From NCBI RefSeq assembly GCF_041821065.1, contig NZ_JBGUAX010000001.1:62001-126000 (forward strand): a DNA stretch of 64,000 nt, in the 5' to 3' direction. The stretch is from Egicoccus sp. AB-alg2 (GTDB lineage Bacteria > Actinomycetota > Nitriliruptoria > Nitriliruptorales > Nitriliruptoraceae). Position 1 is the first letter of the stretch. Every line of letters starts with the position of its first letter. Positions 9,108 to 34,008 of this stretch are shown piece by piece. Both the position numbers and the translations under genes were made by a program. The notes beneath the pieces are model-generated. The model had not been told where the DNA came from, ran no database searches, and saw only the letters and a list, made by a program, of their open reading frames with translations.

Positions 9108-9490
9108 CATCGCGGGGAAGAAAGCACCGCAACGAGGGGGCCGCGGCCGTAGAGTTCGCGCTCGTACTGCTGCCCCTGCTGGCAATTGTGGCCGGCATCA
9201 TCGACTTCGGGTTGATGCTCAACGCCCAACTCAGCCTGACGCACGCCGCGCGTGAGGGCGTCAGGGTTCTCGCCATCGGCGACGGAGACGGGGCAGCCGC
9301 AGCGACGACAGCCTTCCAGCCATCGCCGGGCGCGACTGGATTCGCTGCCACGCCGACAGGGTGCCCGAACGCCGCTGGCCGAGCCGTGATGCAGACATCG
9401 GCAACCTACGAGTACTACTTCCTGCGGGTGTTCCTGCCCGAGGACGGACGACCCCTCCAAAGTCGGGCGGTAATGCGATGCAACGGCTGA
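9104..9490 (+). CDS. tadE: TadE-like minor pilin/pseudopilin
   Basis: A 128-residue protein with the TadE-like N-terminus NEGAAAVEFALVLLPLLAIV: a Gly cleavage site, Glu at +5, then one hydrophobic helix ending IIDFGLMLNAQLSLTHAARE, the usual TadE continuation. The C-terminal half carries two Cys and aromatic residues and should be extracytoplasmic. It overlaps the second pilin gene by four bases and the next gene by 13. Third-position GC is lower here than in flanking genes. Confidence 0.85.
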   Translation: MTSRGRKHRNEGAAAVEFALVLLPLLAIVAGIIDFGLMLNAQLSLTHAAREGVRVLAIGDGDGAAAATTAFQPSPGATGFAATPTGCPNAAGRAVMQTSATYEYYFLRVFLPEDGRPLQSRAVMRCNG

Positions 9491-10455
9491 ATCGAGACGA
9501 TGGCGCAGTGACGGTCATCGTCGCCCTCCTGATCGTCACGCTCCTCGGCGTTGCCGCAATCGCCATTGACGTCGGAAATCTGTTCTGGGAACGCCGCGCC
9601 CTTCAGAATGGCGCCGATGCCGCTGCACTTGCGGCCGCTCAGGATTTCGCGTCCGGTAATGGTGCAGCAGCAGCAGAGGTGGCTGCGCGTGACTTCGCCG
9701 ACAGCAACAACAGTCGTGGCGCTTGGGTCGAGTCCTTCACACAACCGACTTCCAACAGCGTCCGGGTGGTGACGCGCTCCGGCAACATCGATGGCGAAGT
9801 GCCACTCAACTCGATCCTCGCGCAGTTTCTTGGCAGGGAGACATACTTCGCTCGTGCCACTGCCACTGCGGCCTGGGGCGGCATGGGTGGTGGGTCCACG
9901 GTCCCGCTCGCCTTCTCCTGGTGTGAGTGGGATCGGTTCACCAACGGGCTCGGGATTGATGCATTGCCGACCGCCAACCTAACGGTATTCCACCACACAT
10001 CCTCCGCGTCGGATGAAAACGACTGCGATGGGCCCGCCGGTCAGGACTATCCCGGTGGCTTTGGCTGGTTGGACACCAATGGTTCCGGAACATGCACCGC
10101 CGATGTGATTCTGGGGCAGGTTGGAGGCGACACGGGCAACTCGCCTCCTGTGCCGGCAAGTTCGACGGGATGCACGAGCGCCTTCTTCGCGGGCTTGATC
10201 GGTCAGACAGTTCTCATGCCCGTATTCGGGGACGTTACGGGCACTGGTAGCAACGCCACGTACGACGTGTTGGGGTTCGCTGCCCTGGAGGTCACAGGCT
10301 TCAGGTTCGGCGGCTCGCTCACCGGTGGTGTGGTGCCCTGCGGCAACCCGAATCGCTGCATCAGTGGGCGATTCGTCGCCTACTACGACCTCGGCCAGGA
10401 ACCCGTGGAGGGTGCGCCGGACTACGGCGCTTACGTCATTGGTCTGACCGGTTAG
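9478..10455 (+). CDS. TadG-like pilus-assembly protein
   Basis: Starting at ATG 9478 gives 325 residues. The N-terminal DDGAVTVIVALLIVTLLGVA is a membrane anchor, followed by AIDVGNLFWERRALQNGADA and ALAAAQ, the TadG/putative Flp-assembly signature. The rest is a Ser/Thr/Gly-rich extracellular domain with several Cys (for example CGNPNRCIS). There is no vWA domain as in long TadG proteins; a separate vWA lies in the TadB fusion downstream. Codon use is clearly less GC-rich than in neighbouring genes. Confidence 0.85.
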   Translation: MQRLNRDDGAVTVIVALLIVTLLGVAAIAIDVGNLFWERRALQNGADAAALAAAQDFASGNGAAAAEVAARDFADSNNSRGAWVESFTQPTSNSVRVVTRSGNIDGEVPLNSILAQFLGRETYFARATATAAWGGMGGGSTVPLAFSWCEWDRFTNGLGIDALPTANLTVFHHTSSASDENDCDGPAGQDYPGGFGWLDTNGSGTCTADVILGQVGGDTGNSPPVPASSTGCTSAFFAGLIGQTVLMPVFGDVTGTGSNATYDVLGFAALEVTGFRFGGSLTGGVVPCGNPNRCISGRFVAYYDLGQEPVEGAPDYGAYVIGLTG

Positions 10456-10465
10456 GAGTATCACC

Positions 10466-11278
10466 ATGGTTCGCAAGGTCTTGGGTGTAGTAGGGGCCGT
10501 GCTGCTCGCGTTGATCGGCACTGGGCTTCTGGTGGCATACGTGCGGGGGGCCGAGGACCGAGCACTCGCCGGGGAGGAGGTCGTCGAAGTTCTGGTCGTC
10601 CGCGAGGACGTGCCGAGGGGCACCGAGGCCGAGGCACTCGGCGACTACGTCGCGGTGGAGCGTGTCCCGAAGAAGGTTCGCGCTATCGGTGGCATCGACG
10701 ACCTCGATGCCCTCAACGGGCAGGTCGCGGCCGTGGACCTCGTGGCCGGCGAGCAGCTGGTGCGGCCGCGCTTCGTCACGCCGGCGCAACTCGAGGAGGA
10801 ATCGCAGATCGAGGTGCCCGAGGGGCTGCAGGAAGTGACGCTGTCCCTCGAACCGCACCGAGCCATGGGCGGGAAGGTGAAGCCCGGGGACACCGTCGGG
10901 ATCTTCGCCTCCTTCGACCTGAACGACAAACGTGAAGACGAGCAGATCGCGGAGGCGGAGAACGAGGACTACCGCCAGCGTCTCAGCGAGACCTCCAAGA
11001 TGATCCTGCACAAGCTGCTGGTCACGAGCGTGCAATGGGAGCAGGTCCCGCAGACGCCCGACAACACCGGTGACGAGGCTTCCTCGGGGGCGTCGGGTGG
11101 GCGGATCGAGCTCGCTCCCACCGGCAACCTTCTCGTGACCTTCGCCGTCAGCGTCGAGCAGGCCGAGCGAATGATCTTCACCGCCGAGCACGGCACCGTC
11201 TGGCTGTCGGCCGAACCGGAGACCGCCGACGAGGACGGCAGCGTCCTGCGGACGCCGGGGAACATCTACAATGACTGA
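10466..11278 (+). CDS. cpaB: Flp pilus assembly protein CpaB/RcpC
   Basis: A 270-residue protein with one N-terminal membrane helix and then a SAF-like domain (VLVVREDVPRGTEAEALGDY; AVDLVAGEQLVRPRFV), followed by the RcpC/CpaB domain (GLQEVTLSLEPHRAMGGKV, KPGDTVGIFASF). CpaB proteins are periplasmic or cell-wall-side parts of the Tad channel that may bind glycan. An AGGAG site lies before the ATG, and the end overlaps the CpaE gene by eight bases. Confidence 0.9.
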   Translation: MVRKVLGVVGAVLLALIGTGLLVAYVRGAEDRALAGEEVVEVLVVREDVPRGTEAEALGDYVAVERVPKKVRAIGGIDDLDALNGQVAAVDLVAGEQLVRPRFVTPAQLEEESQIEVPEGLQEVTLSLEPHRAMGGKVKPGDTVGIFASFDLNDKREDEQIAEAENEDYRQRLSETSKMILHKLLVTSVQWEQVPQTPDNTGDEASSGASGGRIELAPTGNLLVTFAVSVEQAERMIFTAEHGTVWLSAEPETADEDGSVLRTPGNIYND

Positions 11279-12467
11279 CCTGCGCATCCTCCTCGCCACC
11301 CCCCACGCCGGCTATGAGCAGCGCGTCCGGCAGGCCTTCGGTGGACTTCTAAACGGCGACCTGCGCCGCTGGGACGCGGCGCTCGGGGCCGTCAGTCCCG
11401 ACGGGCTGCTCCGGCAACTCAGCGACGCGCAGCCTGATGTCGTCGCCATCGGTCCGGGGCTCGACCTTGACACCGCACTGGCGATGGCGGCTCAGCTTGA
11501 GCAGGACCGCCCGGAGATCAGTGTCCTGCTCATCAGCGAGACCGAGCCGGCACTGTGGGAGCGGGCAATGCGGGCCGGCATCCGCGACGTCCTCGACCCC
11601 AGCGCCGTCGACGCCGATGTACGCGCCGCGTTCGATCGCGCCTTGCACGTCGCCGAGGGACGCCGCCGCAACCTCGTCGGCGTGCCGGACGCCGCGCCTT
11701 CGGGCCGAATCATCACCGTGTTGTCCCCGAAGGGCGGTTCGGGCAAGACGACCCTTGCCAGCAACCTGGCGGTCGGGCTGGCACTGGCCGAGCCCAACAA
11801 GGTGGCGATCGTCGACCTCGACCTGCAGTTCGGTGACGTCAGCAGCGCGCTGCGCATGAATCCGGAAACCAGCATCGTCGACGCCGTGCGCGCCCCTGGG
11901 CACCAGGACGCGATGACCCTGAAGACGTTCCTGACGGCCCACCCGTCAGGCCTCTGGGCTCTGTGTGGTCCCGACGCCCCGGCCGAGGGCGAACTGGTGA
12001 CCGCAGAGCAGGCCAAGGCCGTCGTCCAGACGCTGGCCGGCGAGTTCCGCTACGTCGTGGTCGACACCTGCGCAGGTCTGACGGAGCACACCCTCTCGGT
12101 TCTGGAGGTCTCGACCGACCTGATCCTGATGTGCGCGATGGATGTGCTGAGCGTCCGCAGCCTCCGCAAGGAGGTGGACGCGCTGGAGCAACTCGGGATG
12201 ACGCACCAGCGCCGCCACTTCGTCATCAACCGCGCCGATTCCAAGGTCGGCCTGGACATCAAGGACGTCGAGGCCACCGTCGGCCAGCCGGTGGACGTGG
12301 CCGTGTCGAGTTCGCGGGTCGTGCCGCTGTCGATGAACCAGGGCAGCCCCGTGGTCGAGTCCGAGCCGCGCTCGCAGGTGGCCAAGCAGTTCACCAGCCT
12401 GGTCCACAAGTTCGCCGAACAGCCGCAGCAGAGCGGCTTCTCCCTTCTGCGCAGGAGCGGACGATGA
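11271..12467 (+). CDS. cpaE: CpaE/TadZ-like pilus localisation ATPase
   Basis: The 398-residue protein has a receiver-like N-terminal domain of about 130 residues and a MinD/ParA-type ATPase domain. The deviant Walker A reads SPKGGSGKTTLASNLA near residue 150; Walker B-like VAIVDLDLQFGDVSSAL and VVVDTCAGL follow. CpaE/TadZ proteins place the Tad secretion complex at a cell site. The gene overlaps both neighbours, as expected within a tightly coupled operon. Confidence 0.92.
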   Translation: MTDLRILLATPHAGYEQRVRQAFGGLLNGDLRRWDAALGAVSPDGLLRQLSDAQPDVVAIGPGLDLDTALAMAAQLEQDRPEISVLLISETEPALWERAMRAGIRDVLDPSAVDADVRAAFDRALHVAEGRRRNLVGVPDAAPSGRIITVLSPKGGSGKTTLASNLAVGLALAEPNKVAIVDLDLQFGDVSSALRMNPETSIVDAVRAPGHQDAMTLKTFLTAHPSGLWALCGPDAPAEGELVTAEQAKAVVQTLAGEFRYVVVDTCAGLTEHTLSVLEVSTDLILMCAMDVLSVRSLRKEVDALEQLGMTHQRRHFVINRADSKVGLDIKDVEATVGQPVDVAVSSSRVVPLSMNQGSPVVESEPRSQVAKQFTSLVHKFAEQPQQSGFSLLRRSGR

Positions 12468-21811: not shown

Positions 21812-23230
21812 TCAGTCCTTGGGGACGTAGAGCCGCAGGTTGGTGATCGAGGCCGAGCCCTCGTAGTAGTTGGTGTGTGGATTGCCGATGATGAAGTAGT
21901 CGGGGTACGCGGAGTCGGACGGCCACAGGCTGCCCATGTCGTAACTGCCGTACGGCCCGTCGATCACGTGCTGGCGGTCGAACTCGCCGTCGTACTCGTC
22001 GGGCGTCTGGTTGTAGTGCCAGATCGGGTGGCCGTCCTGGACGAACTCGCGCTCGAACCGCAGCGTGTCCGGACCGTGCAGGAACGTGCCGCTGACTTCC
22101 TGGACGTAGCTCGTGCCGGTCCGCTCGATCGCGAAGCGGTACGTCTCGCCCGGCAGCAGGTCGGGGCGCAGTTCGCCGACGGAGACGATGTTCACGCCCG
22201 GGTCACCGCCGTGGAAGAAGCCACAGTCGGTCTCCATCATGAACTCGTTGTAGACGAAGCCGGTGTTGCGCTGGTTGTCGTCGGTCAGGAACAGCATGTT
22301 GATGGGGATGCTGCTCAGGCTGCGCGGATCGTGGTGGCTGTAGGTCTCACCCGTCCTCGGGTCGCACACGTCGTAGTTGGCGCCCCAGCTGTGCGTGACC
22401 TGGTACTGGTCCATCACGACCTTGCGCCGGTTGTGGATGAACACGTTGTTCCGCGGTGCCGGATCCGGGTAGTCGACGATGCCGAGGAAGTAGAAGCCGT
22501 TCTCCCCGCGGACGTCGGCGAAGTCGCAGTACGCCGGCGAGGTCGGCTGTCCGACCGTGGCCGTCCACGGATGCTGGGTCTTGCAGCCCTCGGCGCCATA
22601 GCCGTTGATCAACCCGTCGTAGTCCCACGCGCCGTCACGGGGTCCGCCGAAGTCGAGCGCGACCAGCTCGTACTCGATCCGGTAGCGGTCCGGCAGCGGC
22701 TCGGTGGGACGGACGATCGCGCCGTCGGTGTTGTTCGGCAGGTCGAAGTGACCGACCTTGCCGACGCCGGGGACGACCGCATCGCGGAACGTGGGGACCT
22801 GCGCCAGCTCACCGGTCTTGCCCTGGTCCCGGGTCGCGAGCTCGGCGGTGAGCCAGCCGTCACGGCCGAACTCGAAGCTCGCGCGATAGGTGTCGAAGGA
22901 GTCCAGGGCTTCGGCGAAGACGTCACCACCCTTGACGTGGAAGGCCTCGCCGTCGTCGTCGAACGGCCCGTACTGGTCGGACAGGTCGTCACGCTCCCAC
23001 GTGAGGTCTCGTCCGACCGGCGCGCCGAACCGCTCGACATACTTCAGGCGCCACTGCGACGGATCGTGTGGTGCCGCGCGCCGCGAGGTCTCGTCCGACG
23101 ACGCCACCTCGCTGCCCGACGGCGCCGCCTCCTCGGCTGCCCCGGCGGCGACGCCCGGAAGGCTCACCGCCAGGGTGAGGGCGGCGAAACCGATGCCGCG
23201 CCCCCAGGTTCGTGCTGCTCGTCTCGACAT
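21812..23230 (-). CDS. Secreted protein of unknown function (possible jelly-roll carbohydrate-active protein)
   Basis: Start ATG 23230 gives 472 residues with a clear signal peptide (RGIGFAALTLAVSLPGVAAG). The mature protein is rich in Trp, Tyr, Asp and Gly and predicted beta strands, has four Cys, and holds blocks such as YRASFEFGRDGWLTAELATR and GETYRFAIERTGTSYVQEV. The pattern recalls concanavalin-like or jelly-roll sugar-active proteins, but no catalytic motif is certain. It follows the amino-sugar operon on the same strand after a gap of about 130 bases, so it could process or bind the polymer that feeds the operon. That link is inference. Confidence 0.6.
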   Translation of the reverse strand: MSRRAARTWGRGIGFAALTLAVSLPGVAAGAAEEAAPSGSEVASSDETSRRAAPHDPSQWRLKYVERFGAPVGRDLTWERDDLSDQYGPFDDDGEAFHVKGGDVFAEALDSFDTYRASFEFGRDGWLTAELATRDQGKTGELAQVPTFRDAVVPGVGKVGHFDLPNNTDGAIVRPTEPLPDRYRIEYELVALDFGGPRDGAWDYDGLINGYGAEGCKTQHPWTATVGQPTSPAYCDFADVRGENGFYFLGIVDYPDPAPRNNVFIHNRRKVVMDQYQVTHSWGANYDVCDPRTGETYSHHDPRSLSSIPINMLFLTDDNQRNTGFVYNEFMMETDCGFFHGGDPGVNIVSVGELRPDLLPGETYRFAIERTGTSYVQEVSGTFLHGPDTLRFEREFVQDGHPIWHYNQTPDEYDGEFDRQHVIDGPYGSYDMGSLWPSDSAYPDYFIIGNPHTNYYEGSASITNLRLYVPKD

Positions 23231-23357: not shown

Positions 23358-24212
23358 TCAGGTCATCGCGACTCGCTCGGCCGCCTGCAGGACCTCGAGG
23401 AGCCGTGCGACCTCGCTGGCCATGACCTGCCGGGCCGGCCCGACGTACTTGCGGGTGTCGACCAGGTCCGGCTGCGCGGCGAGGGTGTCACGCACGGATG
23501 CGGTGAACACCTTGTTGAGGTGCGTGGCGATGTTGATCTTGGTCATGCCCGCTTCGACCGCGCGCGTGAGCTCCTCGTCGGGCACGCCGCTGGAGCCGTG
23601 CAGCACCAACGGGACACCTGCGGCCTTTCGAAGGGCCGCGATCAGGTCCAGGTCCAGCTCGGCCGTGCGTGTGGTCATCGCGTGCGAGGTGCCGACCGCC
23701 ACGGCCAGCCCGTCGACGCCGGTCATCTCGACGAAGCGGCGAGCCTCGTCCGGGTCCGTGCGGACGCCGGGAGCGTGGACGCCGTCCTTGCCGCCGACCT
23801 CGCCCAGCTCGGCCTCGACCCACACCTCACGGCCAGCCGCGCCGGCGACGACCTCGCGGGTGGTCGCGAGGTTCTGCTCCCAGGGCAGCTTCGAGCCGTC
23901 GTACATGACCGAGCCGAAACCCAGCGCGATGGCTTCGTCGACCAGATCCGGCTCAGTGGCGTGGTCGAGGTGGACGGCCACCGGCACGCGTGCCGTCTCC
24001 GCGACGGCCAGCGCTGCTCGAGCCAGGGGAGCGAGCCGCCCGTGCCAGCGCACCGCGTTCTCGCTGATCTGCAGGATCACGCCGGCCCGGGCTTCCTCGG
24101 CGCCCGTGACGTGTGCCTCGGCGTGCTCGAGATGCACCACGTTGAAGGCGCCGACGCCATAGCGGCCTTCGTGCGCAGCCTGGACGAGCGAGGCGGTCGG
24201 GACCAGCGGCAT
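23358..24212 (-). CDS. Class II fructose/tagatose-bisphosphate aldolase
   Basis: A 284-residue zinc aldolase of the GatY/KbaY/FbaA class. Zinc and catalytic blocks are visible: VAVHLDHATEPDLVDEAI, VWVEAELGEVGGKDG, GTSHAM, VLHGSSGVPDEELTRAVEAG and MTKINIATHLNKVFT. It should cleave a ketohexose 1,6-bisphosphate to glyceraldehyde 3-phosphate and dihydroxyacetone phosphate. As the last metabolic gene after a PfkB kinase and an AgaS-like enzyme it probably acts on tagatose 1,6-bisphosphate; fructose 1,6-bisphosphate cannot be excluded. The ATG at 24212 is chosen from the conserved start (MPLVPTASLVQAAHEG). Confidence 0.9.
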   Translation of the reverse strand: MPLVPTASLVQAAHEGRYGVGAFNVVHLEHAEAHVTGAEEARAGVILQISENAVRWHGRLAPLARAALAVAETARVPVAVHLDHATEPDLVDEAIALGFGSVMYDGSKLPWEQNLATTREVVAGAAGREVWVEAELGEVGGKDGVHAPGVRTDPDEARRFVEMTGVDGLAVAVGTSHAMTTRTAELDLDLIAALRKAAGVPLVLHGSSGVPDEELTRAVEAGMTKINIATHLNKVFTASVRDTLAAQPDLVDTRKYVGPARQVMASEVARLLEVLQAAERVAMT

Positions 24213-24241
24213 GGAGTTCCTTGCGTACGCGGGTGGGGGCG

Positions 24242-25162
24242 TCAGATCGTTTCGAGGGTCACATCGGGCAGCAGCCGGCGGTAGGCCGCCAGCTCGAAGG
24301 CGCCCGCCCCGACGACGAGGGTGTTCGCCGCGCCGGCGGCAGCGGCCGACTGCAGGGCGGCCGACCACGGCAGGTCCTGGGCCAGCGCGACGGCCAGGGC
24401 GCCGGCGAACGCGTCACCCGAGCCGGCGGGGTGGCGCGCGTCCACCCTCGGGGCGTGGATCCGTTGCGTCGCCTGTCCGACGCCGGCCGCCACGGCGCCG
24501 TCCGCACCGGCGGTGACGATCGCTCGTCGGCAGCCGTCCAGCAGGGCACGTGCCGCGTCCGCGGGATCCTCCACGCCGGTGACCTCGGCGGCCTCCTCAC
24601 GGTCGACCTTGATCACGTCCACGCCGGTCTTCAGCGCGGCCCGTAGTCCCGGTCCGGAGCTGTCGACGACCACGCTCGCCCCGGCGCCAGCGGCCGACGC
24701 GAGCAGCCAGCACACGGTGTCGAGGTGATCGCCGTCCGGCAGCGAACCGGACACGACCAGGATCCCGCCTGCCAGCAGGTCGGCGAGACACCGCTCGGCC
24801 GATTCGCGGAGCCGCTCGGGCGGGATGGCCTCGCCCCGGTCGTACAGCAGCACCGCGTGCCGGTCGTCGGAGATCACCTGGGTCGTGCGGGTCCGCCACG
24901 TGTCGCTGCGGTCCACCACGAAATCCTCGTCGAGGCCCTCGTCGTGCAGGCTCTCGGCCAGCCACGCGCCGGTGTCGCCCGCGACCACGCCGTGGCAGCG
25001 CACGCTGCCGCCGAGGAGGTGGACGGTGCGGGCGACGTTGATGCCCTTGCCGCCCGCCAGGCGTCGACGCTCGACCGGGCGGAGCGGCACGTCGAAGCGC
25101 AGATCCTCGACCAGGACCGTCTCGTCGACGGCCGGATTCGGGGTGAAGGTACGGATCGTCAC
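24242..25162 (-). CDS. PfkB-family 1-phosphofructokinase/tagatose-6-phosphate kinase
   Basis: The 306-residue kinase starts MTIRTFTPNPAVDETVLVED, typical of FruK/LacC/AgaZ-like sugar-phosphate kinases. It has the N-terminal PfkB motif GGKGINVARTVHLLGG and the C-terminal motif HPAGSGDAFAGALA with the catalytic Asp. It would phosphorylate tagatose 6-phosphate or a related ketohexose phosphate with ATP. Its GTG start overlaps the stop of the SIS gene before it (GTGA). Confidence 0.88.
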   Translation of the reverse strand: MTIRTFTPNPAVDETVLVEDLRFDVPLRPVERRRLAGGKGINVARTVHLLGGSVRCHGVVAGDTGAWLAESLHDEGLDEDFVVDRSDTWRTRTTQVISDDRHAVLLYDRGEAIPPERLRESAERCLADLLAGGILVVSGSLPDGDHLDTVCWLLASAAGAGASVVVDSSGPGLRAALKTGVDVIKVDREEAAEVTGVEDPADAARALLDGCRRAIVTAGADGAVAAGVGQATQRIHAPRVDARHPAGSGDAFAGALAVALAQDLPWSAALQSAAAAGAANTLVVGAGAFELAAYRRLLPDVTLETI

Positions 25163-25905
25163 AGGAAGAAGATGCGGTCGCCGTGCTCGGCCGTCAGGCG
25201 GGCGTTGTACTCAGCCCCGCCATCGACGTTGGCGGCGAGGAAGACCGGTGGCTCGACGCCGCTGTCAGCCACCCGCTGGATCGCTCCCGACACCATCGCG
25301 TGCAGCAGCGCGGTCGACGTGACCCCGGACGCGGGCGTGAACTTCTGTGGCACGTTCGGGTGCTCGAGCACCGCGTCGCCGACGTCCACCTTGTTGTCCA
25401 GCACCACATCGGCGTGGTCGTGCATCTTCGTCCCGGACGGGTGGCGCGACTCCACGCTGCCGCTGTAGGCGACCGACGTCACGGCGATCACCTGCAGACC
25501 CCGCTCCTTGGCGCCCTTGGCCATCTCGATCGGCACGGCGTTGCGGCCCGAGACCGACACGACGATCAGCACGTCGCCGGGCTGGATCGGCGTGGCGTCG
25601 AGCAGCGCGTCCGCGAAGCCCTCGAGCTTCTCCATGGCGGAGGTCAGCGTGGTCGGGCGCGTCTCCAGCGAGGTGATGCCGGGCCCGAAGATCGGGTTGA
25701 TCAGCATCAGTCCACCGGCGCGGTAGATGATGTCCTGCACGGGCAGGGCGGAGTGGGTGCAGCCGAACGCGAAGATGCGCCGACCTTCGACGACCGCGTC
25801 GGCCAGCAGCCGTGCCGCGGCGTCGATGTTGTCCTGTTCCTCGGTCCGGAGGCGCTCGAGCAGCCCGCCGACCGCTGCGAGGTAGTCGTTGGCGAGGTTG
25901 GTCAT
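25159..25905 (-). CDS. SIS-domain sugar isomerase, UPF0309-like
   Basis: A 248-residue single-SIS protein. FAFGCTHSALPVQDIIYRAG corresponds to the FGxGHS...E..YRAGG block of the UPF0309 family, and VLIVVSVSGRNAVPIEMAK is the phosphosugar-binding SIS loop. The start at 25905 overlaps the NagA stop by four bases; an ATG 12 bases upstream is possible. UPF0309 proteins often sit in amino-sugar operons beside nagA, but their reaction is not firmly known. It is the second SIS protein in this operon. Confidence 0.82.
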   Translation of the reverse strand: MTNLANDYLAAVGGLLERLRTEEQDNIDAAARLLADAVVEGRRIFAFGCTHSALPVQDIIYRAGGLMLINPIFGPGITSLETRPTTLTSAMEKLEGFADALLDATPIQPGDVLIVVSVSGRNAVPIEMAKGAKERGLQVIAVTSVAYSGSVESRHPSGTKMHDHADVVLDNKVDVGDAVLEHPNVPQKFTPASGVTSTALLHAMVSGAIQRVADSGVEPPVFLAANVDGGAEYNARLTAEHGDRIFFL

Positions 25906-27062
25906 CGTCGAATCCATCGTTCGTCGGGAAGGGCGTCGTGGGCGACGACGCCCGAGATCAGGGTCAACAGGGGATGGAGCCCGTCCGGCTCCAGGAGGAC
26001 GAGATCGGCGGTCGCCCCGGCAGCGATCGTGCCGCGGTCGTGCAGCCCCATGGCCTGGGCCGGGACGCCCGACGCGGCGTGCAGCGCCGCGGCGAGGTCC
26101 TGGCCGCTGGCCGCCTGGTAGCGCGCCACGCCGTCCAGCAGGTCGAGCGTGCTGCCGGCCAGCCCACCGGCCTGGGTGCGGGCGATGCCGTCGCGGACGA
26201 CCACCCGCTGGTCGGCGAGCAGGTACTCGCCGTCGCCCAATCCGGTGGCGCGCATCGCATCGCTGACGAGCACCACCCGTGCGGGTCCGGCGGCCTGTGC
26301 GACGAGGCGCAGCGTGGTGGGGTGGAGGTGGATCAGGTCGGCGATCACCTGGACGAACACGCGCGGGTCGGTCAGGCATGCGCCGACGACGCCCGGTTCG
26401 CGGTGGTGCAGCGGGGGCATGCCGTTGAACAGGTGGGTGGCCTGCGTCGCGCCGGCGTCGATCGCCGCCTGGGTGTGCTCGACATCGGCGTCGGAGTGGC
26501 CGATCGCGATGCGGACGCCGGCCGCCGATGCTGCCCGCGTCAGGGCCAGGTCGGGGTCGCGTTCGGGTGCGACGGTCAGCAGCGCGACCTCGCCGCTGTC
26601 GAGCCACCGGCGCCACTCGGCCGGGTCGGCGTCGCGAAGGTGGGCGGGGTCCTGCGCGCCGCATCGTGCCGGCGACAGGTAGGGGCCCTCGAGGTGGAGC
26701 CCGATGGAGCGGGCCTCGCCATCGCCGGGGACGTAGGTGCGGTGGGCCTCGATGGCCGCGCGCAGCCCCTCGGGGTGGTGGCTGGCGGTGGTCGGCGCCC
26801 AACTGGTCACCCCACGGGCGGCGAGGTGCCGCGCCACGGTCCGTAGCGCCTCGTGGGTCGCATCGAGGGTGTCGTACCCCTCGGCGCCGTGGATGTGGAT
26901 GTCCACCAACCCGGGGGCGAGGAGCAGGCCCGTGGCGTCCACCACGGGCCCGTCGTCCTCGAGGTCCTGGCCGACGCGCACGATGCCGTCGGCGGCCACC
27001 ACGACGTCGGCGACGCCGTGGCGATGGCCGTCCGACAGGACCTGTGCACCTCGCAGCAGCAT
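25902..27062 (-). CDS. nagA: N-acetylhexosamine-6-phosphate deacetylase
   Basis: A 386-residue amidohydrolase of the NagA/AgaA family. It shows the metal motif DIHIHG (His56, His58), GLHLEGPYLSPARCGAQ with the catalytic-site Glu, IGHSDADVEHTQAAIDAGAT, ATHLFNGMPPLHHREPG and the catalytic Asp in VLVSDAM. It removes acetate from N-acetylglucosamine or N-acetylgalactosamine 6-phosphate produced by the PTS genes just upstream. CGGAGCGG precedes the ATG, which follows the EIIC stop after two bases. Confidence 0.93.
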   Translation of the reverse strand: MLLRGAQVLSDGHRHGVADVVVAADGIVRVGQDLEDDGPVVDATGLLLAPGLVDIHIHGAEGYDTLDATHEALRTVARHLAARGVTSWAPTTASHHPEGLRAAIEAHRTYVPGDGEARSIGLHLEGPYLSPARCGAQDPAHLRDADPAEWRRWLDSGEVALLTVAPERDPDLALTRAASAAGVRIAIGHSDADVEHTQAAIDAGATQATHLFNGMPPLHHREPGVVGACLTDPRVFVQVIADLIHLHPTTLRLVAQAAGPARVVLVSDAMRATGLGDGEYLLADQRVVVRDGIARTQAGGLAGSTLDLLDGVARYQAASGQDLAAALHAASGVPAQAMGLHDRGTIAAGATADLVLLEPDGLHPLLTLISGVVAHDALPDERWIRR

Positions 27063-27064
27063 GC

Positions 27065-28387
27065 TCAGACCGCTCCGAACAGGCGCGCCACGAACCAGAT
27101 CAGGATGCCCGGCACGATCGCGTCGGGGACCGTGAACGCCAGGCCCTCCGCGCCCATGCCGCTGAGGTCGCCGAACACCTGGTAGCGGTACGCAAAGCTG
27201 ATCAGCCACCAGCCGACGAAGCCCCACAGGAACCCGCCGAGGATGGCGCCGCGCTTGCCGCCGGTGGCGTTGCCGAAGATCGCCGCGGCACCGGAGGCGA
27301 AGAACGCCACGATCATGCTCGGGATCGGCACCGGCATCCCGGCCGCCGCCAGCGTCGCCATGCCCGCGACCTGCCCGAACGTGCCGGAGATGAGGCCGAT
27401 CACCAGCGCGTTGGGGGCGAACGGGAAGATCACCGGCACATCCAGCGCCGGGATCGCACCGGGGATCACACGCTCGGCGATGCCCTGGAAGGCCGGCACG
27501 ATCTCACCGATGAGCATGCGCACGCCGTAGAGCAGGATCAGCATGCCGGCCGTGAAACCGGCCGCCTGCAGCAGCGCGAACACGATCCAGTTCTGACCGC
27601 CGGAGATGTCCTCCTCGAGCACGCTGATCCCCACGGCCGACGCGGCCAGGCCGGCCGCGGCCGCGACCACCAGGATCATGACCAGCGTGGTGGACACCGC
27701 GATGTCGCGGAAGAAGTTCAGGCTCTGCGGCACCTCGATGTTCTCGGTCGAGTCGTCGGGCTTGCCGACCAGGCCGCCGAGCCAGCCGGCGGTCACGTTC
27801 AGCAGCGTCTGCCCGTGACCGAAGGCGATGTCGTCGCTGCCGGTGATCTTGCGCATGAACGGCTGGGCGAGGGCCGGCGCCAGGGTCATGTAGGCACCGA
27901 ACACCACCGAGGCCAGCGCGACGGTCGCGACGGTGTTGAGTCCGAACGAGTGGAACAGGATCGCGAAGGCACCCGCGTGGACCCAGATCATGTGCCCGGT
28001 CAGGTAGATGTACTTGAACGGGGTGAAGCGGGCCAGCAGCAGGTGGATCACCAGGCCGAACAGCAGGGTCCAGCCGATCGCGGCGCCGACGTTGCCGACG
28101 TTGGCGTCCTGGACGGCGGAGACCACGGCCTCGTCGAAGGTCACGAACGTCTGGAAGCGTTCGGTCGGCAGCCCGGTCTCGAACATCTGCTGGATCGGGC
28201 CGAGCGCCTCGAGCAGGACGGCGATGCCGCCGCCGATGATCAGCAGGCTCAGCCCGGTCTTGATCGTGCCGGTGACGACCTGCCCGGACGGCGCCTTCTG
28301 GGCCAGCAGCCCGATCAGCGCGATGATCGCCAGGATCACCGCCGGAATCTGTAGCAGTTCCACGAAGAACTGCACCGTGCTCATCAT
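27065..28387 (-). CDS. PTS EIIC, ascorbate/UlaA (SgaT) type
   Basis: A 440-residue transporter with about ten membrane segments. FKYIYLTGHMIWVHAG and DDIAFGHGQTLLNVTAGW match the SgaT/UlaA superfamily rather than the mannose-type EIIC/EIID used by most N-acetylgalactosamine systems. With the separate EIIB and EIIA genes just upstream it forms a complete PTS permease. The genes around it point to an amino sugar as substrate. A second ATG follows directly (28384); GGAGAGG fits the first. Confidence 0.9.
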   Translation of the reverse strand: MMSTVQFFVELLQIPAVILAIIALIGLLAQKAPSGQVVTGTIKTGLSLLIIGGGIAVLLEALGPIQQMFETGLPTERFQTFVTFDEAVVSAVQDANVGNVGAAIGWTLLFGLVIHLLLARFTPFKYIYLTGHMIWVHAGAFAILFHSFGLNTVATVALASVVFGAYMTLAPALAQPFMRKITGSDDIAFGHGQTLLNVTAGWLGGLVGKPDDSTENIEVPQSLNFFRDIAVSTTLVMILVVAAAAGLAASAVGISVLEEDISGGQNWIVFALLQAAGFTAGMLILLYGVRMLIGEIVPAFQGIAERVIPGAIPALDVPVIFPFAPNALVIGLISGTFGQVAGMATLAAAGMPVPIPSMIVAFFASGAAAIFGNATGGKRGAILGGFLWGFVGWWLISFAYRYQVFGDLSGMGAEGLAFTVPDAIVPGILIWFVARLFGAV

Positions 28388-28435
28388 CCCCTCATCCTCT
28401 CCCTGGGTCCCCGTTCCCGGTGACGGCGTGGTGGA

Positions 28436-28720
28436 TCACGCCTCGCCGGCGACCTCCTTGGCCGCCGGCACGACCTTCTCGGCGATCTCGGCCTTGTTGA
28501 CGAGGTTGTCGATGTAGACCACCGGGGTGCTCGAGCCACCGAGGTGCGAGCGCATGTCCGATGGCGCCACGATGAGATCGGCCTGCATCGTCTTGACCGA
28601 GCCGAGGTCGACGGGACTGACCTCGGCGGCCACGCCTGCCTCGCGCAGGATCTTGTCGACGGTGAGCTTCAGCATCATGCTGGTGCCGAAGCCCATCCCA
28701 CAGACGGTTGCGATACGCAT
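28436..28720 (-). CDS. PTS EIIB component, SgaB/UlaB-like
   Basis: A 94-residue protein starting MRIATVCGMGFGTSMMLKLT. The P-loop-like CGMGFGTS holds Cys7, the phosphorylation site of lactose/ascorbate-type EIIB. It takes phosphate from EIIA and gives it to the sugar entering through EIIC. Gene order EIIA-EIIB-EIIC on the minus strand and its size are normal for the Ula type. Confidence 0.9.
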   Translation of the reverse strand: MRIATVCGMGFGTSMMLKLTVDKILREAGVAAEVSPVDLGSVKTMQADLIVAPSDMRSHLGGSSTPVVYIDNLVNKAEIAEKVVPAAKEVAGEA

Positions 28721-28757
28721 GGACGGTTCCTTGTGTGCGTGCGGGTCACTTCACCCG

Positions 28758-29198
28758 TCAGCTGGTGAGCAGTTCCAGGACGGCCTGCGGCGTCTGGGCG
28801 CCCGCGACTCGCTCCACGACGTCGGGATCGCCCAGCCGCACGGCGAGGTCCTGCAGCGCGGCGAGGTGGGCTTCCTTGTCGACGGGTGCGAGGGCGACGA
28901 CCAGCCGCACCGGGTCGTTTGTCGCGTGGCCGAAGGCGACCGGGTCGCGCAGGGTGACCAGCGAGATGCCGGTGCGGACCACGCCGTCCTCCGGCTTCGC
29001 ATGGGGCAGTGCGACGCCCGGCGCGATGACGCAGTAGGGCCCGAGCTCGTCGAGCGCGTCGACCATGGCCTGCACGTAGTCGGGCTCGCAGGCGCCGGCG
29101 TCCCGGAGCAGCTCACCCGCGGCACGGACCGCACCGGCCCGGTCGTCGACCTGCACGCCGGTGCGGATGACGTCGACGGTCAGCAGGTCCTCAAGCAT
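28758..29198 (-). CDS. PTS EIIA component, mannitol/fructose/Ula type
   Basis: A 146-residue EIIA with the active-site His66 in IAPGVALPHAKPEDGVVRTG, the hallmark of the PTS EIIA type 2 domain. It receives phosphate from HPr, here probably the HPr domain of the divergent EI-HPr fusion, and passes it to the EIIB encoded 37 bases downstream. Its start overlaps the preceding SIS gene by eight bases. Confidence 0.92.
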   Translation of the reverse strand: MLEDLLTVDVIRTGVQVDDRAGAVRAAGELLRDAGACEPDYVQAMVDALDELGPYCVIAPGVALPHAKPEDGVVRTGISLVTLRDPVAFGHATNDPVRLVVALAPVDKEAHLAALQDLAVRLGDPDVVERVAGAQTPQAVLELLTS

Positions 29199-30210
29199 CG
29201 AGGGTCACCACCGCGGTGAGGTTCTCGGGCCGGTCGGGGTCGAGCTGCTCGTCGCGCGCCATGGCCAGTCCGAGCAGCTGCACGAACGGCAGGGCCAGCA
29301 CGTCCCGCCAGCCGTCCGGCAGCGCCGAGGAGGCGGCGAGGTCGGCACCGGCGACGTCGTGGCGTGTGGCGACCGTGACCGTCCGTGCGCCGAGGTCGGC
29401 CATGTCCGCCAGCACCTTGCGCTCGAGCGGCTCGTCGCCGTCGAGCAGGCCGATCACGAGCGTGCCGGCGCCGATCATCGACATGGGGCCGTGCCGCACC
29501 TCGAGGGTGTGGAACGCCTGCGCCTCGACGAGCGCGACCTCGGTGAGCTTGAGGGCCGCCTCGCAGGCCAGGCCATAGCGGGGCCCGCTTCCCAGCACGA
29601 CGATGCGTTCGGGGCGGCCCGACGCGAGAACGTCCTCCACCAGCCGGTCTGCGTCGGCGAGCATTCGCGCCCCCGCTTCCTCGATGGCCTCGGACACGCC
29701 GTCGGGTACGGGCCGGAACAGCGAGAGCGCGCCGAGCATCATCGAGGTGAACGAGCGGGTCTGGACGACCGACTCCTCGGCAGCATGGTCGAGGTCCACC
29801 CGTGTCGCGGCCTGCGCTGCCAGATCGCTTCGCGCATCGCAGGTGACCGACAGACGCTGGCCGGGCCAGTCCTGCAGGACGCGCACGGTCTCGCTGGTCG
29901 CACCGGAACGCGAGATCGCCAGCAGCGGGGTCTGCTCCGGCGCCGAGGTCCACGAGGCCCGGTCGAGCAGCAGCTCGGACGCCGGCAGGGACCGCACCGG
30001 CACCCGCAGGTCGTGCTCGACGTGGCGCGCCAGCCAGCGGGCGACGTAGAACGTCGACCCGCACCCGGTCACGAGCAGGTTCGCGCCGTCGGCGGCAGCG
30101 GCCGGCGGTGACGCGATCTGCAAGGTCTGCTTCCAGGTGGCCGGCTGCGAGCGGATCTCACGCTCGGTGACGGCGCCGGGGGTGGCTTCGGGCACGGAAC
30201 TCTCCTTCAT
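29191..30210 (-). CDS. Double-SIS aminosugar-phosphate deaminase/isomerase (AgaS/GlmS-like)
   Basis: A 339-residue protein with two SIS domains and no glutaminase domain. The first reads NLLVTGCGSTFYVARWLARH and LLAISRSGATSETVRVLQDW; the second VVLGSGPRYGLACEAALKLT with AFHTLEVRHGPMSMI. It ends DPDRPENLTAVVTLD, as in GlmS. In this setting it should act like AgaS or NagB, converting an amino-sugar 6-phosphate to a ketohexose phosphate plus ammonia. Its start overlaps the DeoR stop (ATGA). Confidence 0.85.
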   Translation of the reverse strand: MKESSVPEATPGAVTEREIRSQPATWKQTLQIASPPAAAADGANLLVTGCGSTFYVARWLARHVEHDLRVPVRSLPASELLLDRASWTSAPEQTPLLAISRSGATSETVRVLQDWPGQRLSVTCDARSDLAAQAATRVDLDHAAEESVVQTRSFTSMMLGALSLFRPVPDGVSEAIEEAGARMLADADRLVEDVLASGRPERIVVLGSGPRYGLACEAALKLTEVALVEAQAFHTLEVRHGPMSMIGAGTLVIGLLDGDEPLERKVLADMADLGARTVTVATRHDVAGADLAASSALPDGWRDVLALPFVQLLGLAMARDEQLDPDRPENLTAVVTLDA

Positions 30211-30992
30211 GCCGAATCGGCGATCTCGACGGCGACGCCGCGCGCACGGATGGCGGCGAGCAGGTCTGGGTCGGCTTCGGAATCGGTCACCAGGCGGGAG
30301 GCCGCCTCGACCGGGGCGGTCTTCGACGCCGCGACGTGACCGAGCTTGGTGGCATCGGCGACGATGGTCAGGCGATTGCTGGTGCGCATCACGGCCTGGT
30401 CCGTGACCAGCTCGGGCAGGTGCTCGCTGGTCAGGCCGTGGTCGGGGTCGACCCCGCGCATGCCCATGACCACCTCGTCGCAGCGCATCTGCTCCAGCGC
30501 CCGCTCGGCGAGGTGGCCGATCATCGACATCTCTCGATGCCGCAGGAATCCGCCGACGACGACCACGTCGACGGCCGAGCTGGCCAGCGCACTGGCGATG
30601 GGGAGCGCGTTGGTGACGACGGTGAGGTGCTGCCGGCCGGCGAGGTGGTCCGCGACCGCCAGCGTCGTCGTCCCGGAGCCGAGGAAGACGGTCGAACCGT
30701 CCGGGATCGAGCGCGCGACGAGCCGACCGATCGACTGCTTCGCGGCCGCCTGTTGGCCCAATCGCTGCGTCCATGGTGGTTCGTCGGTGGGACGCTCCAG
30801 GGCGACGGCCCCGCCGTGGGTGCGCTCGATCTCGTTGCGGTCGTGCAGCAGCTGCAGGTCCCGGCGAATGGTCATCTCCGAGACCTGGAAACGTTCCGCG
30901 AGCTCGCCGACGGAGACGGCGCCCAGGCGCCTCACGAGCTCCGCGATCGCGCGCGCCCGCTGTTCCCGCAACGGCCCACCACGCTCGGCCAC
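30207..30992 (-). CDS. DeoR-family regulator of the sugar operon
   Basis: The best start is GTG 30992, five bases after a perfect AGGAGG; earlier in-frame Met codons lie inside the operator-like repeats. The 261-residue protein has a DeoR helix-turn-helix (VSVGELAERFQVSEMTIRRD) and a sugar-phosphate-sensing domain with STVFLGSGTTTLAVADHL and VTNALPIASAL. DeoR proteins repress sugar genes until a phosphosugar binds. Being first in the operon and divergent from the EI-HPr gene, it probably controls both sides. Confidence 0.9.
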   Translation of the reverse strand: MAERGGPLREQRARAIAELVRRLGAVSVGELAERFQVSEMTIRRDLQLLHDRNEIERTHGGAVALERPTDEPPWTQRLGQQAAAKQSIGRLVARSIPDGSTVFLGSGTTTLAVADHLAGRQHLTVVTNALPIASALASSAVDVVVVGGFLRHREMSMIGHLAERALEQMRCDEVVMGMRGVDPDHGLTSEHLPELVTDQAVMRTSNRLTIVADATKLGHVAASKTAPVEAASRLVTDSEADPDLLAAIRARGVAVEIADSA

Positions 30993-31021
30993 GCCCACCT
31001 CCTGGACATTTCGCTCGACTT

Positions 31022-31049
31022 CGAACATCATGTCGAACAGAAACGAACA
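31022..31049. promoter_or_regulatory. Operator-like direct repeats (CGAACA x3)
   Basis: CGAACA occurs at 31022-31027, 31034-31039 and 31044-31049, with start-to-start spacing of 12 and 10 bases, about one helical turn. The repeats fill the short divergent region between the DeoR gene and the EI-HPr gene. Clustered direct half-sites are typical for DeoR-type repressors, so this is a likely operator for both transcripts. Confidence 0.6.
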
Positions 31050-31068
31050 ATGACGGTCGGAGCCAGCG

Positions 31069-32991
31069 ATGTCAAGCCCCACCTTCCCGGACGCCCCTAT
31101 TCGTGGAGCTTCAGCATCGCCGGGGCTCGGCGAGGGCCGGATCGCGATCGTTGCCGAGCCAGCGTCCGCGGCGGAAGCGGCGGCAATCGGACACCTGACG
31201 ACCCAGGAGATGTTCGATCGTGCTCGCGCCGGCCTCCGCGCCGAGGCCGAGCGCGCAGCGGGCGAGGTCGCGCAGATCCTGCGCGGTCAGCTGGCTCTGC
31301 TCGACGACCCGAACCTCGCGCGGACGGTCGAGGAGGAACGTGCCGCCGGTCGCTCACTGGCGGAGGCCGTCGATGCCGCGGCGGCACGCCTGCGCGATGG
31401 ACTGCTGGCCAGCGACGTCGAGCGGATCCGTCAACGGGCCAGCGACGTCGACGACCTCGCCGCCCGGCTGCAGACGGCGGCGACCGGGCGCGCGCGGTCG
31501 CCGGTGGTCCCGGACGGGCCCGGCCCGTTCGTGTTGGTGGCCCGCGACCTGCTTCCGTCCCAGACCGCGCAACTGGATGCCGACCGCGTGACCGGGCTCG
31601 TGCTGGAGGACGGCGGTCCGACCGCACACGCCGCCATCATCGCGCGGGCACTCGCGATCCCGCTGGTCACCGGGGTCACGGACGCCCGTGAGCTCCTGGC
31701 CGCCCACTCCTCGGCCCTCGTCGACGGGACCCACGGCGGCGTCTGGCCCGAGCCCGACGACCAGGTCCGGGACCGGCTCACCGCAGCACAGCCCGCCGCG
31801 CCGGCGGAGGCGGCGCAGCCGGTCCGCCGAGTCGAGCTCGGGGGCGGCGAGGTCGTCGAGGTTGCCGTCAACATCGGCGCCGTCGCCGAGGCGGAACGCG
31901 CCTCCAAGGCCGGCGCCCGGGCGGTGGGCCTCCTGCGCAGCGAGCTCCTGGCGTTCGCCGGCGCCCGGAGCCGCGAAGAGCTGGCCGGCGTCCTGCGGCA
32001 GGTCGGGCAGGCCATCGACGGGCCGATCGTGTTCCGGCTCCTCGACGTGGGCGGCGACAAGCCCCTGGACGGCGTGACCGTCGAAGGCGAACCCAACCCG
32101 ATGCTGGGTGCACGCGGTGTGCGTCTGCTCGACACCTCCGAGCAGGTCTTCGTCGAGCAGTTGGCGGCGGTCGCGGCGGTCCTCGACGAGGTGGACGTGC
32201 GGATCAGCGTCCCGATGGTCGCCGACCCGGCCGAGGTGGTGGCCGTGCGTGAACTGTGGTCACGTGTGAGCGACCAGCCGGCCCCGCCGATCGGCATCAT
32301 GGTGGAGACGCCCGCCGCGGTGTTCCTGGCCGAGCCCCTGGCGGCGGTCAGCGACTTCTTCTCCATCGGCACCAACGACCTGACCCAGTACGTGCTGGCG
32401 GCCGACCGCGGGAACCCGGCGGTCGCGCACATGGTCGACGCGACGCATCCCGCCGTACTCGGCGCCATCGGTCACGTGACGCGCGCCGCCCAGGCGGCGA
32501 ACATCCCCGTGGCCGTGTGCGGGCAGGCCGCCGCCGACCCGGTGGCGCAGCGCCTGCTCGTCGGGCTGGGCGTGACCGAGCTCTCGGTGCCGGTCGATGC
32601 CCTGCAGGCCACCGTGGCCGCACTGCGCGGCGTGGCGATCGAGGAGCTCCGCGAGGAAGCCTCTCGGGCCACCGGGGCGCACGAGACGCCGGAACCGGCG
32701 TCGCACGAGGGTCGCGAAGACACGGGCGATGCTGAGCCTGGACGATTCGTGGTGACCAATCCCGACGGCCTGCACGTCCGGCCGGCGAGCCAGCTGGCCG
32801 ACGTCGCGAACGAGCACGGCGTGCGGATCGTGATCCGCACGGCGACGGGGGAGGGGGACGCGAGCAGCGTCTTCTCCATCCTCGCCCTCGGCATCGACAC
32901 GGGCCACGAGGTGGAGGTCGACGTGGAGGGGGACGCCGCCGACATGGCCTGGCCGAGCGTCCGCGCCATCCTCGCCGGGGACACGCCGTAG
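31069..32991 (+). CDS. ptsI: PTS enzyme I-HPr fusion protein
   Basis: A 640-residue fusion. Residues 1 to about 545 are enzyme I, with the PEP-dependent phospho-His187 in EDGGPTAHAAIIARALAIPL (the usual Ser before His is Ala here), VGLLRSELL, FRLLDVGGDKP, FFSIGTNDLTQYVLAADRGN and the catalytic Cys484 in VAVCGQ. After an acidic linker, residues 557-640 are HPr with phospho-His569 in NPDGLHVRPAS. Fusions with HPr in front of enzyme I are better known; here HPr is last. It supplies phosphate to the EIIA encoded in the divergent operon. GGAG lies six bases before the ATG. Confidence 0.93.
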   Translation: MSSPTFPDAPIRGASASPGLGEGRIAIVAEPASAAEAAAIGHLTTQEMFDRARAGLRAEAERAAGEVAQILRGQLALLDDPNLARTVEEERAAGRSLAEAVDAAAARLRDGLLASDVERIRQRASDVDDLAARLQTAATGRARSPVVPDGPGPFVLVARDLLPSQTAQLDADRVTGLVLEDGGPTAHAAIIARALAIPLVTGVTDARELLAAHSSALVDGTHGGVWPEPDDQVRDRLTAAQPAAPAEAAQPVRRVELGGGEVVEVAVNIGAVAEAERASKAGARAVGLLRSELLAFAGARSREELAGVLRQVGQAIDGPIVFRLLDVGGDKPLDGVTVEGEPNPMLGARGVRLLDTSEQVFVEQLAAVAAVLDEVDVRISVPMVADPAEVVAVRELWSRVSDQPAPPIGIMVETPAAVFLAEPLAAVSDFFSIGTNDLTQYVLAADRGNPAVAHMVDATHPAVLGAIGHVTRAAQAANIPVAVCGQAAADPVAQRLLVGLGVTELSVPVDALQATVAALRGVAIEELREEASRATGAHETPEPASHEGREDTGDAEPGRFVVTNPDGLHVRPASQLADVANEHGVRIVIRTATGEGDASSVFSILALGIDTGHEVEVDVEGDAADMAWPSVRAILAGDTP

Positions 32992-33576: not shown

Positions 33577-34008
33577 TTGGCATCGCTGTCGCTCGAGCAG
33601 GCCCAGCAGATCATCGACGGCGCCTTCGCCGCCGCGCAGGAACACGACCTCAAGCCGCTCGCGGTCCTGGTGCTGGACGCCGGCGGGCACGCGAAGGCGT
33701 TCGCGCGGCAGGACGGCGCGGCCAACATGCGCTTCCAGATCGCGCACGGGAAAGCGTTCGGTGCGCTCGGGATGGGAACCGGCTCGCGGGCGCTGATGGA
33801 ACGCGCCGAGCAGCAGGCCTACTTCATCGCGGCGGCCACCGCGGCGTTCGGTGGGGCGCTGGTGCCGGTGCCGGGCGGCGTGCTGATCAAGGACGGCGAT
33901 GGCGAGATCCTCGGCGCGGTCGGCGTGACGGGCGACACCTCGGACAACGACGAGATCGCGGCGGTGGCCGGCATCGAGGCGGTCGGGCTCGTCGCCGTCA
34001 CCGGCTGA
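33577..34008 (+). CDS. HbpS/GlcG-like protein
   Basis: A 143-residue protein starting with TTG after GGGAGAGG. It matches the GlcG/HbpS fold: SLEQAQQIIDGAFAAAQEHD, LAVLVLDAGGHAKAFARQDG, GGVLIKDGDGEILGAVGVTG and a C-terminal EIAAVAGIEAVG helix. HbpS-type proteins bind heme or act in redox stress; others are of unknown function. There is no signal peptide, so it is probably cytoplasmic. It stands alone between unrelated genes. Confidence 0.85.
   Translation: MASLSLEQAQQIIDGAFAAAQEHDLKPLAVLVLDAGGHAKAFARQDGAANMRFQIAHGKAFGALGMGTGSRALMERAEQQAYFIAAATAAFGGALVPVPGGVLIKDGDGEILGAVGVTGDTSDNDEIAAVAGIEAVGLVAVTG

Follow-up and report, generated by a model that had tools for sequence, protein, structure and literature searches.

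A nine-gene operon for a sugar phosphotransferase system (PTS) was analysed in a 64,000-nucleotide stretch of the Egicoccus sp. AB-alg2 genome (assembly GCF_041821065.1, contig NZ_JBGUAX010000001.1, positions 62,001 to 126,000, forward strand; hereafter the window). The operon is probably a self-contained system for the import of N-acetyl-D-galactosamine (GalNAc) and its catabolism via tagatose-6-phosphate, not an ascorbate system. It most likely represents a GalNAc-type operon, conserved across phyla, in which a non-orthologous transporter of the UlaA family is joined by an enzyme of the NagS family. The clade of its EIIC has members in Actinomycetota, Chloroflexota, Bacillota and Mycoplasmatota, nearly always accompanied by a SIS protein and a UPF0309 protein.

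Organisation of the operon

Gene families were assigned with Pfam and NCBIfam profile searches of the window proteins. Nine minus-strand genes form a single tightly packed operon. The order is a DeoR-family regulator (30207..30993; PF08220, PF00455), a two-domain SIS protein predicted to be a galactosamine-6-phosphate deaminase/isomerase (29191..30210; PF01380), an EIIA of UlaC/Mtl type (28758..29198; PF00359, 6.4e-29), a UlaB-like EIIB (28436..28720; PF02302), an EIIC of the UlaA/SgaT family, assigned to a putative amino-sugar clade (27065..28387; PF03611, 1e-106, 357 bits, cut-off 24), a NagA/AgaA N-acetylhexosamine-6-phosphate deacetylase (25902..27062; TIGR00221, 272 bits, cut-off 226), a UPF0309 SIS_2 protein nearest to NagS (25159..25905; PF13580, 1.5e-44; NF002805, 291 bits, cut-off 135), a PfkB-family kinase of the 1-phosphofructokinase/tagatose-6-phosphate kinase group (24242..25162; PF00294, 8.8e-39; TIGR03168, 185 bits, under the cut-off of 216) and a class II ketose-1,6-bisphosphate aldolase of the Fba/GatY/KbaY family (23358..24212; PF01116, E 5.7e-88; TIGR00167 above cut-off). 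ATGA overlaps join DeoR to SIS and NagA to UPF0309, a GTGA overlap joins UPF0309 to PfkB, SIS and EIIA share 8 nt, and no terminator-like site was found within the operon. The DeoR start is approximate: a GTG behind AGGAGG was chosen, and the longest open reading frame (ORF) begins at 31082. An EI-HPr fusion (PtsI-PtsH; 31069..32991, plus strand; PF02896, PF00391, PF00381) is transcribed divergently. The phosphorelay active sites are readable in EIIA (ALPHAKP, with the active-site His), EIIB (CGMGFGTS, with the phospho-Cys) and HPr (GLHVRPAS).

The first-pass annotation of 23358-32991 had listed NagA, SIS, PfkB, class II aldolase, EIIC, EIIB and UPF0309, with EIIC and EIIB of the ascorbate SgaT/SgaB type. 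Each gene is in its place by family match, and the transporter type was confirmed (PF03611, NF006919, PF02302). EIIC exceeds the cut-off of NF006919, 'PTS ascorbate EIIC' (402 bits against 380), the best model for EIIB is UlaB/UlaBC, and EIIA is Ula-like as well, with UlaC as its best model. The SIS protein had been called AgaS/GlmS-like. The second half of this name fits the window protein, which scored best with GlmD/GlmS models (121/103 bits; NF041128 121, under cut-off); the first half fits only some relatives, the window protein reaching 90 bits with AgaS (cut-off 529) and no equivalog cut-off in NCBIfam.

Distribution of the gene set

A scan for EIIC over 84,980 species genomes yielded 57 loci, and 24 loci with an EIIC 52-71% identical to that of the window were taken as the related group. 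Their hosts are Corynebacterium, Rothia, Streptomyces sp. AJS327, Actinomycetaceae, Anaerolineaceae and other Chloroflexota, Halobacteroidaceae, Fermentithermobacillaceae and other Bacillota. UPF0309 and SIS each accompany EIIC in 23 of the 24 loci, across three phyla, their misses falling on truncated contigs, and the co-occurrence is therefore not due to chance. NagA was found in 17/24 and PfkB with class II aldolase in 15/24, with GatZ/KbaZ (6/24) and LacD (4/24) as alternatives; the misses include loci on truncated contigs (L012, L020, L031). The complete set is also held by two Mycoplasmatota loci (L034, L035; EIIC 43-45% identity), and loci with an EIIC at about 39-42% identity were without it.

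Close EIIC relatives are rare in the sample taken from the window's own phylum, being confined to the window and genome G064 among 396 genomes, and none was detected among the sampled genus and family mates of the window genome. From this rarity and absence, the operon is probably mobile. No earlier description of the gene set was found in the literature searched, nor any paper on UPF0309 or on 'PTS ascorbate' together with galactosamine, most subscription journals not being covered.

Substrate and predicted pathway

Because the window SIS, kinase and aldolase miss substrate-specific cut-offs, the substrate assignment rests on replacements in the relatives. A gene for a GatZ/KbaZ tagatose-1,6-bisphosphate aldolase lies beside the operon in the Chloroflexota loci L011, L012, L013, L017 and L023, and in L022 (PF08013, E 1.9e-164 in L013 and 9.7e-185 in L022). 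A LacD-type tagatose-1,6-diphosphate aldolase lies by the operon in four Chloroflexota loci (L013, NF009498, 264 bits, cut-off 184). The PfkB/class II aldolase pair was not found in the loci carrying GatZ/KbaZ or LacD instead. An AgaS-family protein takes the SIS position in L022, L026, L032, L034 and L035; these proteins are 37-42% identical to the AgaS of E. coli and score 407-455 bits, all under the cut-off of 529. Together with NagA, these replacements point to a route through GalNAc-6-phosphate, galactosamine-6-phosphate, tagatose-6-phosphate and tagatose-1,6-bisphosphate.

In the proposed pathway, EI-HPr would relay phosphate from phosphoenolpyruvate to EIIA and then EIIB, and EIIC would bring in GalNAc as GalNAc-6-phosphate. 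NagA would remove the acetyl group to give galactosamine-6-phosphate, which the SIS protein would deaminate to tagatose-6-phosphate. PfkB would then form tagatose-1,6-bisphosphate, the class II aldolase would cleave it to triose phosphates, and DeoR may act as a repressor responding to the sugar. UPF0309 may draw on the N-acetylhexosamine (HexNAc)-6-phosphate pool, opening the sugar ring in the manner of SIS enzymes and working at C2-C3; the outcome would be a NagS-like dehydration to a 6P-chromogen side product or an isomerisation. Gene families, operon layout, recurrence and the pocket change described below are direct observations, and the substrate, the individual reactions and the role of the secreted protein are inferred from them.

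The known reference is the Aga/Gam pathway for GalNAc and galactosamine (AgaVWEF/AgaBCD, AgaA/NagA, AgaS, KbaY/KbaZ, with LacC/LacD in some), which has in common with the window predicted PTS import, deacetylation, SIS deamination, a kinase, a ketose-bisphosphate aldolase and a DeoR-family regulator. The PTSs given for it are AgaPTS, GamPTS and GnbPTS (PMC5583593). Aga/Gam transporters are of the mannose family (IIC/IID), whereas the window EIIC is of the UlaA family (PF03611) and no EIID was found in the operon by Pfam search. Aga/Gam has AgaS, whereas the window SIS is by score not of the AgaS family, and the window adds UPF0309 and an orphan secreted protein.

Substrate pocket and phylogeny of EIIC

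Ascorbate is contacted in E. coli UlaA by T86, Y87, H135, I136, Q139, H194, Q195, D314, I358, F362 and M410 (PMC6048161). In 27 clade members the corresponding letters are D, E, H, M, V/I and H (positions 86, 87, 135, 136, 139 and 194) and G (L in two), D, I, F and V (195, 314, 358, 362 and 410). Thus 6/11 contacts (T86, Y87, I136, Q139, Q195, M410) are changed, near-invariantly, with columns 86, 87 and 410 the least certain owing to alignment gaps near the HP1 and HP4 sites. H135, H194, D314, I358, F362 and R288 are retained. The EIIC tree sets the window EIIC, in a 26-row clade (support 99/99), apart from the UlaA proteins of E. coli and Vibrio; the position of the long UlaA branch is unsure. 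The suggested comparison with UlaA and GatC thus gave EIIC a clade of its own; a GatC/SgcC-like identity was ruled out, SgcC lying far outside. This clade, the changed pocket and the GalNAc-pathway partners in several phyla support the first-pass proposal that the SgaT/UlaA family has a new substrate.

The L-ascorbate PTS UlaABC (SgaTBA, TC 4.A.7) has the same EIIC, EIIB and EIIA families as the window, and both keep H135, H194, D314, R288 and the pivots Gly58 and Gly286. The window differs in its altered substrate contacts, its separate EIIC branch and its lack of UlaD, UlaE, UlaF and UlaG, none of which was found in the operon by Pfam and NCBIfam searches or, by tblastn, in the loci examined for context.

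The window genome holds a second PF03611 EIIC (38% identical) with EIIB, EIIA and UPF0309 in a separate group (L094, G000:C1:326500-346400, PTS/UPF0309 genes at about 9138-12160). In its relatives L102, L103 and L113, NagA, SIS and EI-HPr were matched in addition, and no kinase or aldolase was. GntR regulator and HAD protein genes are also present in L102 and L103 (both Pfam-confirmed in L103). The group looks like another amino-sugar branch of the UlaA family. Four further Actinomycetota loci (L104-L107) have a Ula-type PTS beside UPF0309, sometimes in two copies, and neither NagA nor SIS was matched close by; L107 also has a PRD-type regulator. An E. coli plasmid (pC16EC0292-1; L123:5001-8180) carries a UlaA-like EIIC, 38.7% identical to E. 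coli UlaA, and an EIIB adjoining a sulfatase, which suggests that this PTS takes up a sulfated sugar or one freed by a sulfatase.

Relation of UPF0309 to NagS

NagS (SCO4393) is the GlcNAc (N-acetylglucosamine)-6-phosphate dehydratase identified as the toxicity enzyme of Streptomyces (PLoS Biol 2025, PMC12680351). It strips the C3 hydroxyl of HexNAc-6-phosphate and binds the phosphate by three serines, as in MurQ (PMC12680351). The window UPF0309 had been flagged as a second SIS protein of unclear reaction; it is present, and has in NagS a solved and characterised relative (PDB 9eol, E 1.4e-76; 50.6% identity). All nine studied NagS residues (H53, S54, R64, S91, E94, S119, S121, D179, N228) are kept, and residue 227 (Gly, a main-chain contact) is Ala. 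These residues were rejected as proof of the reaction, because distant UPF0309 proteins keep most of them too and assayed homologues at 26-36% identity had negligible or no activity on GlcNAc-6-phosphate (PMC12680351).

NagS orthologues were reported solely in Streptomycetaceae, at 58.7% identity or more (PMC12680351), a minimum that the window protein does not reach. The close operon proteins from Actinomycetota and Chloroflexota, at 40-51% identity to NagS, lie between the reported orthologues and the assayed homologues. Both a NagS (74%, L137) and an operon protein (49.6%) occur in Streptomyces sp. AJS327. The NagS gene adjoins dmdR1, whereas the window gene is embedded in a PTS operon. Trees placed NagS within the operon group (98/89 in one, 89/86 in another; joint group 99/95), and a claim that NagS arose there was dropped after the approximately unbiased (AU) test, in which a sister relation was not rejected (p 0.26).

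A survey of 34 non-NagS UPF0309 loci from the 396-genome draw was compared with 16 control stretches from the same draw. About 20/34 lay near NagA, NagB, NagE, AgaC, AgaS, KbaZ, aldolase or Ula-type PTS genes against 0/16 controls, a count made by eye from tblastn hits in related genomes and read as enrichment, not as a probability. Partner transporters vary (NagE, Aga mannose-type, Ula-type, ABC), and L230 and L231 pair UPF0309 with AgaC-AgaS-NagA sets; with such varied transporters, UPF0309 seems to go with the sugar phosphate rather than the transporter. In L235 (G277:C1:3157500-3176500), UPF0309 lies beside RpiR, a BadF-type kinase, ROK, SIS, class II aldolase and ABC permease genes, an amino-sugar-like locus in which no PTS was matched; its content presumably resembles that of muropeptide-type operons.

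A broader reading can be offered tentatively, at somewhat less than even chances. UPF0309 would be a dedicated HexNAc-6-phosphate enzyme of amino-sugar import across phyla (a dehydratase, 2-epimerase or anomerase) with NagS as its domesticated branch, and UlaA would comprise at least two amino-sugar clades, both automatically annotated as ascorbate PTS.

Secreted protein and neighbouring features

An ORF for an orphan secreted protein, F14 (21812..23230, minus strand), starts 127 nt past the aldolase stop, with no terminator-like site in between. It belongs to the set, and the first-pass bounds, which hold for the operon, left it out. F14 begins with a segment resembling a signal peptide, followed by an orphan domain of about 410 aa, with no sequence match in Pfam, NCBIfam or PDB. 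Homologues in Corynebacterium and Rothia adjoin the same operon. F14 was found in 10/201 Corynebacterium genomes, all among the 11 with a clade EIIC (species not independent), and a full match among the 396 phylum genomes was found in the window only. The AlphaFold model (pLDDT 68; an earlier one at 51 was too poor) resembles a concanavalin A (ConA)-like jelly roll by Foldseek/VIA matches, among which PL7, GH16, L-type lectins and legume lectins scored alike at Z ~12. Naming by family was dropped, as the model gave only this common fold and no sequence family matched. F14 is a candidate for a new family of carbohydrate-active or carbohydrate-binding proteins linked to the operon sugar, and may help to free or capture a GalNAc-containing glycan.

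In the gap between the regulator and EI-HPr, a TGTTCG direct repeat (31034..31049, minus strand; exact match of TGTTCGNNNNTGTTCG) is a candidate operator; with one mismatch allowed, 0.31 matches are expected in the window, and the evidence for an operator is weak. Downstream of EI-HPr (33577-34008) lies a small protein that we take to resemble the GlcG/HbpS group.

Discussion

Several observations weigh against GalNAc as the substrate. All of the substrate evidence is genomic context, and the window SIS, PfkB and aldolase fall below galactosamine- or tagatose-specific NCBIfam cut-offs. NagA was not found near EIIC in L022, L024, L026 and L030. NagS does not bind GalNAc-6-phosphate (PMC12680351), which leaves a UPF0309 role in a GalNAc route unproved. 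L095 (genome G064, G064:C15:45500-65400, EIIC at about 9384-10718) has a clade EIIC, 69% identical and with the clade pocket letters (I instead of V at 139), in an unrelated operon of SDR, UxaC-like, creatininase-family, phosphotriesterase-family and YhfZ-type regulator genes, and UPF0309, NagA and SIS were unmatched nearby. Pocket and clade therefore do not fix the substrate: either this EIIC switched partners or the clade has a broader substrate range.

Other substrates were weighed against the same evidence. L-ascorbate, the substrate by which NF006919 names the EIIC, is favoured by that score and by the best models of EIIA and EIIB; with six contacts changed, no Ula catabolic gene matched in the loci examined for context and EIIC outside the UlaA branch, it was ruled out, and we give it almost no weight. 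Import of GlcNAc, or of N-acetylmannosamine, with kinase and aldolase as a fructose-phosphate branch, would agree with the GlmD/GlmS-like SIS, with the scores of fructose-type models for the class II aldolase and PfkB, which equal those of the tagatose ones, and with the second Ula-type group, which has UPF0309 and no kinase or aldolase match. GlcNAc catabolism gives fructose-6-phosphate, so that a kinase and a dedicated aldolase are superfluous there; the GatZ/KbaZ, LacD and AgaS-family replacements occur within the same EIIC clade, and a NagB-family gene lies elsewhere in the window genome. This reading is improbable.

An acetylated amino sugar besides free GalNAc, such as a 3-O-substituted HexNAc or a HexNAc disaccharide, is also unlikely, if less so. 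UPF0309 would here perform a MurQ-like beta-elimination before NagA and SIS. UPF0309 is nearly constant in the loci though a plain GalNAc route does not need it, the C3 chemistry and three-serine phosphate binding of NagS are as described above, and L235 joins UPF0309 to RpiR, a BadF-type kinase and ABC permeases. UPF0309 nevertheless adjoins plain NagE/NagB and AgaC/AgaS/NagA sets as well, and the operon set has no conserved phosphoglycosidase or other enzyme for disaccharides. The unusual acetylated amino sugar of the first-pass annotation is thus not needed, because the replacements point to ordinary GalNAc, and UPF0309 is what keeps it alive.

Import and catabolism of GalNAc is accordingly the preferred reading of the operon. 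The NCBIfam model calls its EIIC an ascorbate transporter and the context in several phyla says amino sugar, so that predictions of vitamin C use there are probably wrong. An amino-sugar branch would be added to the ascorbate/galactitol PTS superfamily. For NagS, described as unprecedented and as restricted to Streptomycetaceae, the operon proteins supply close relatives in a clear metabolic setting, and the evolutionary origin of NagS and the general reaction of the family therefore become directly testable.

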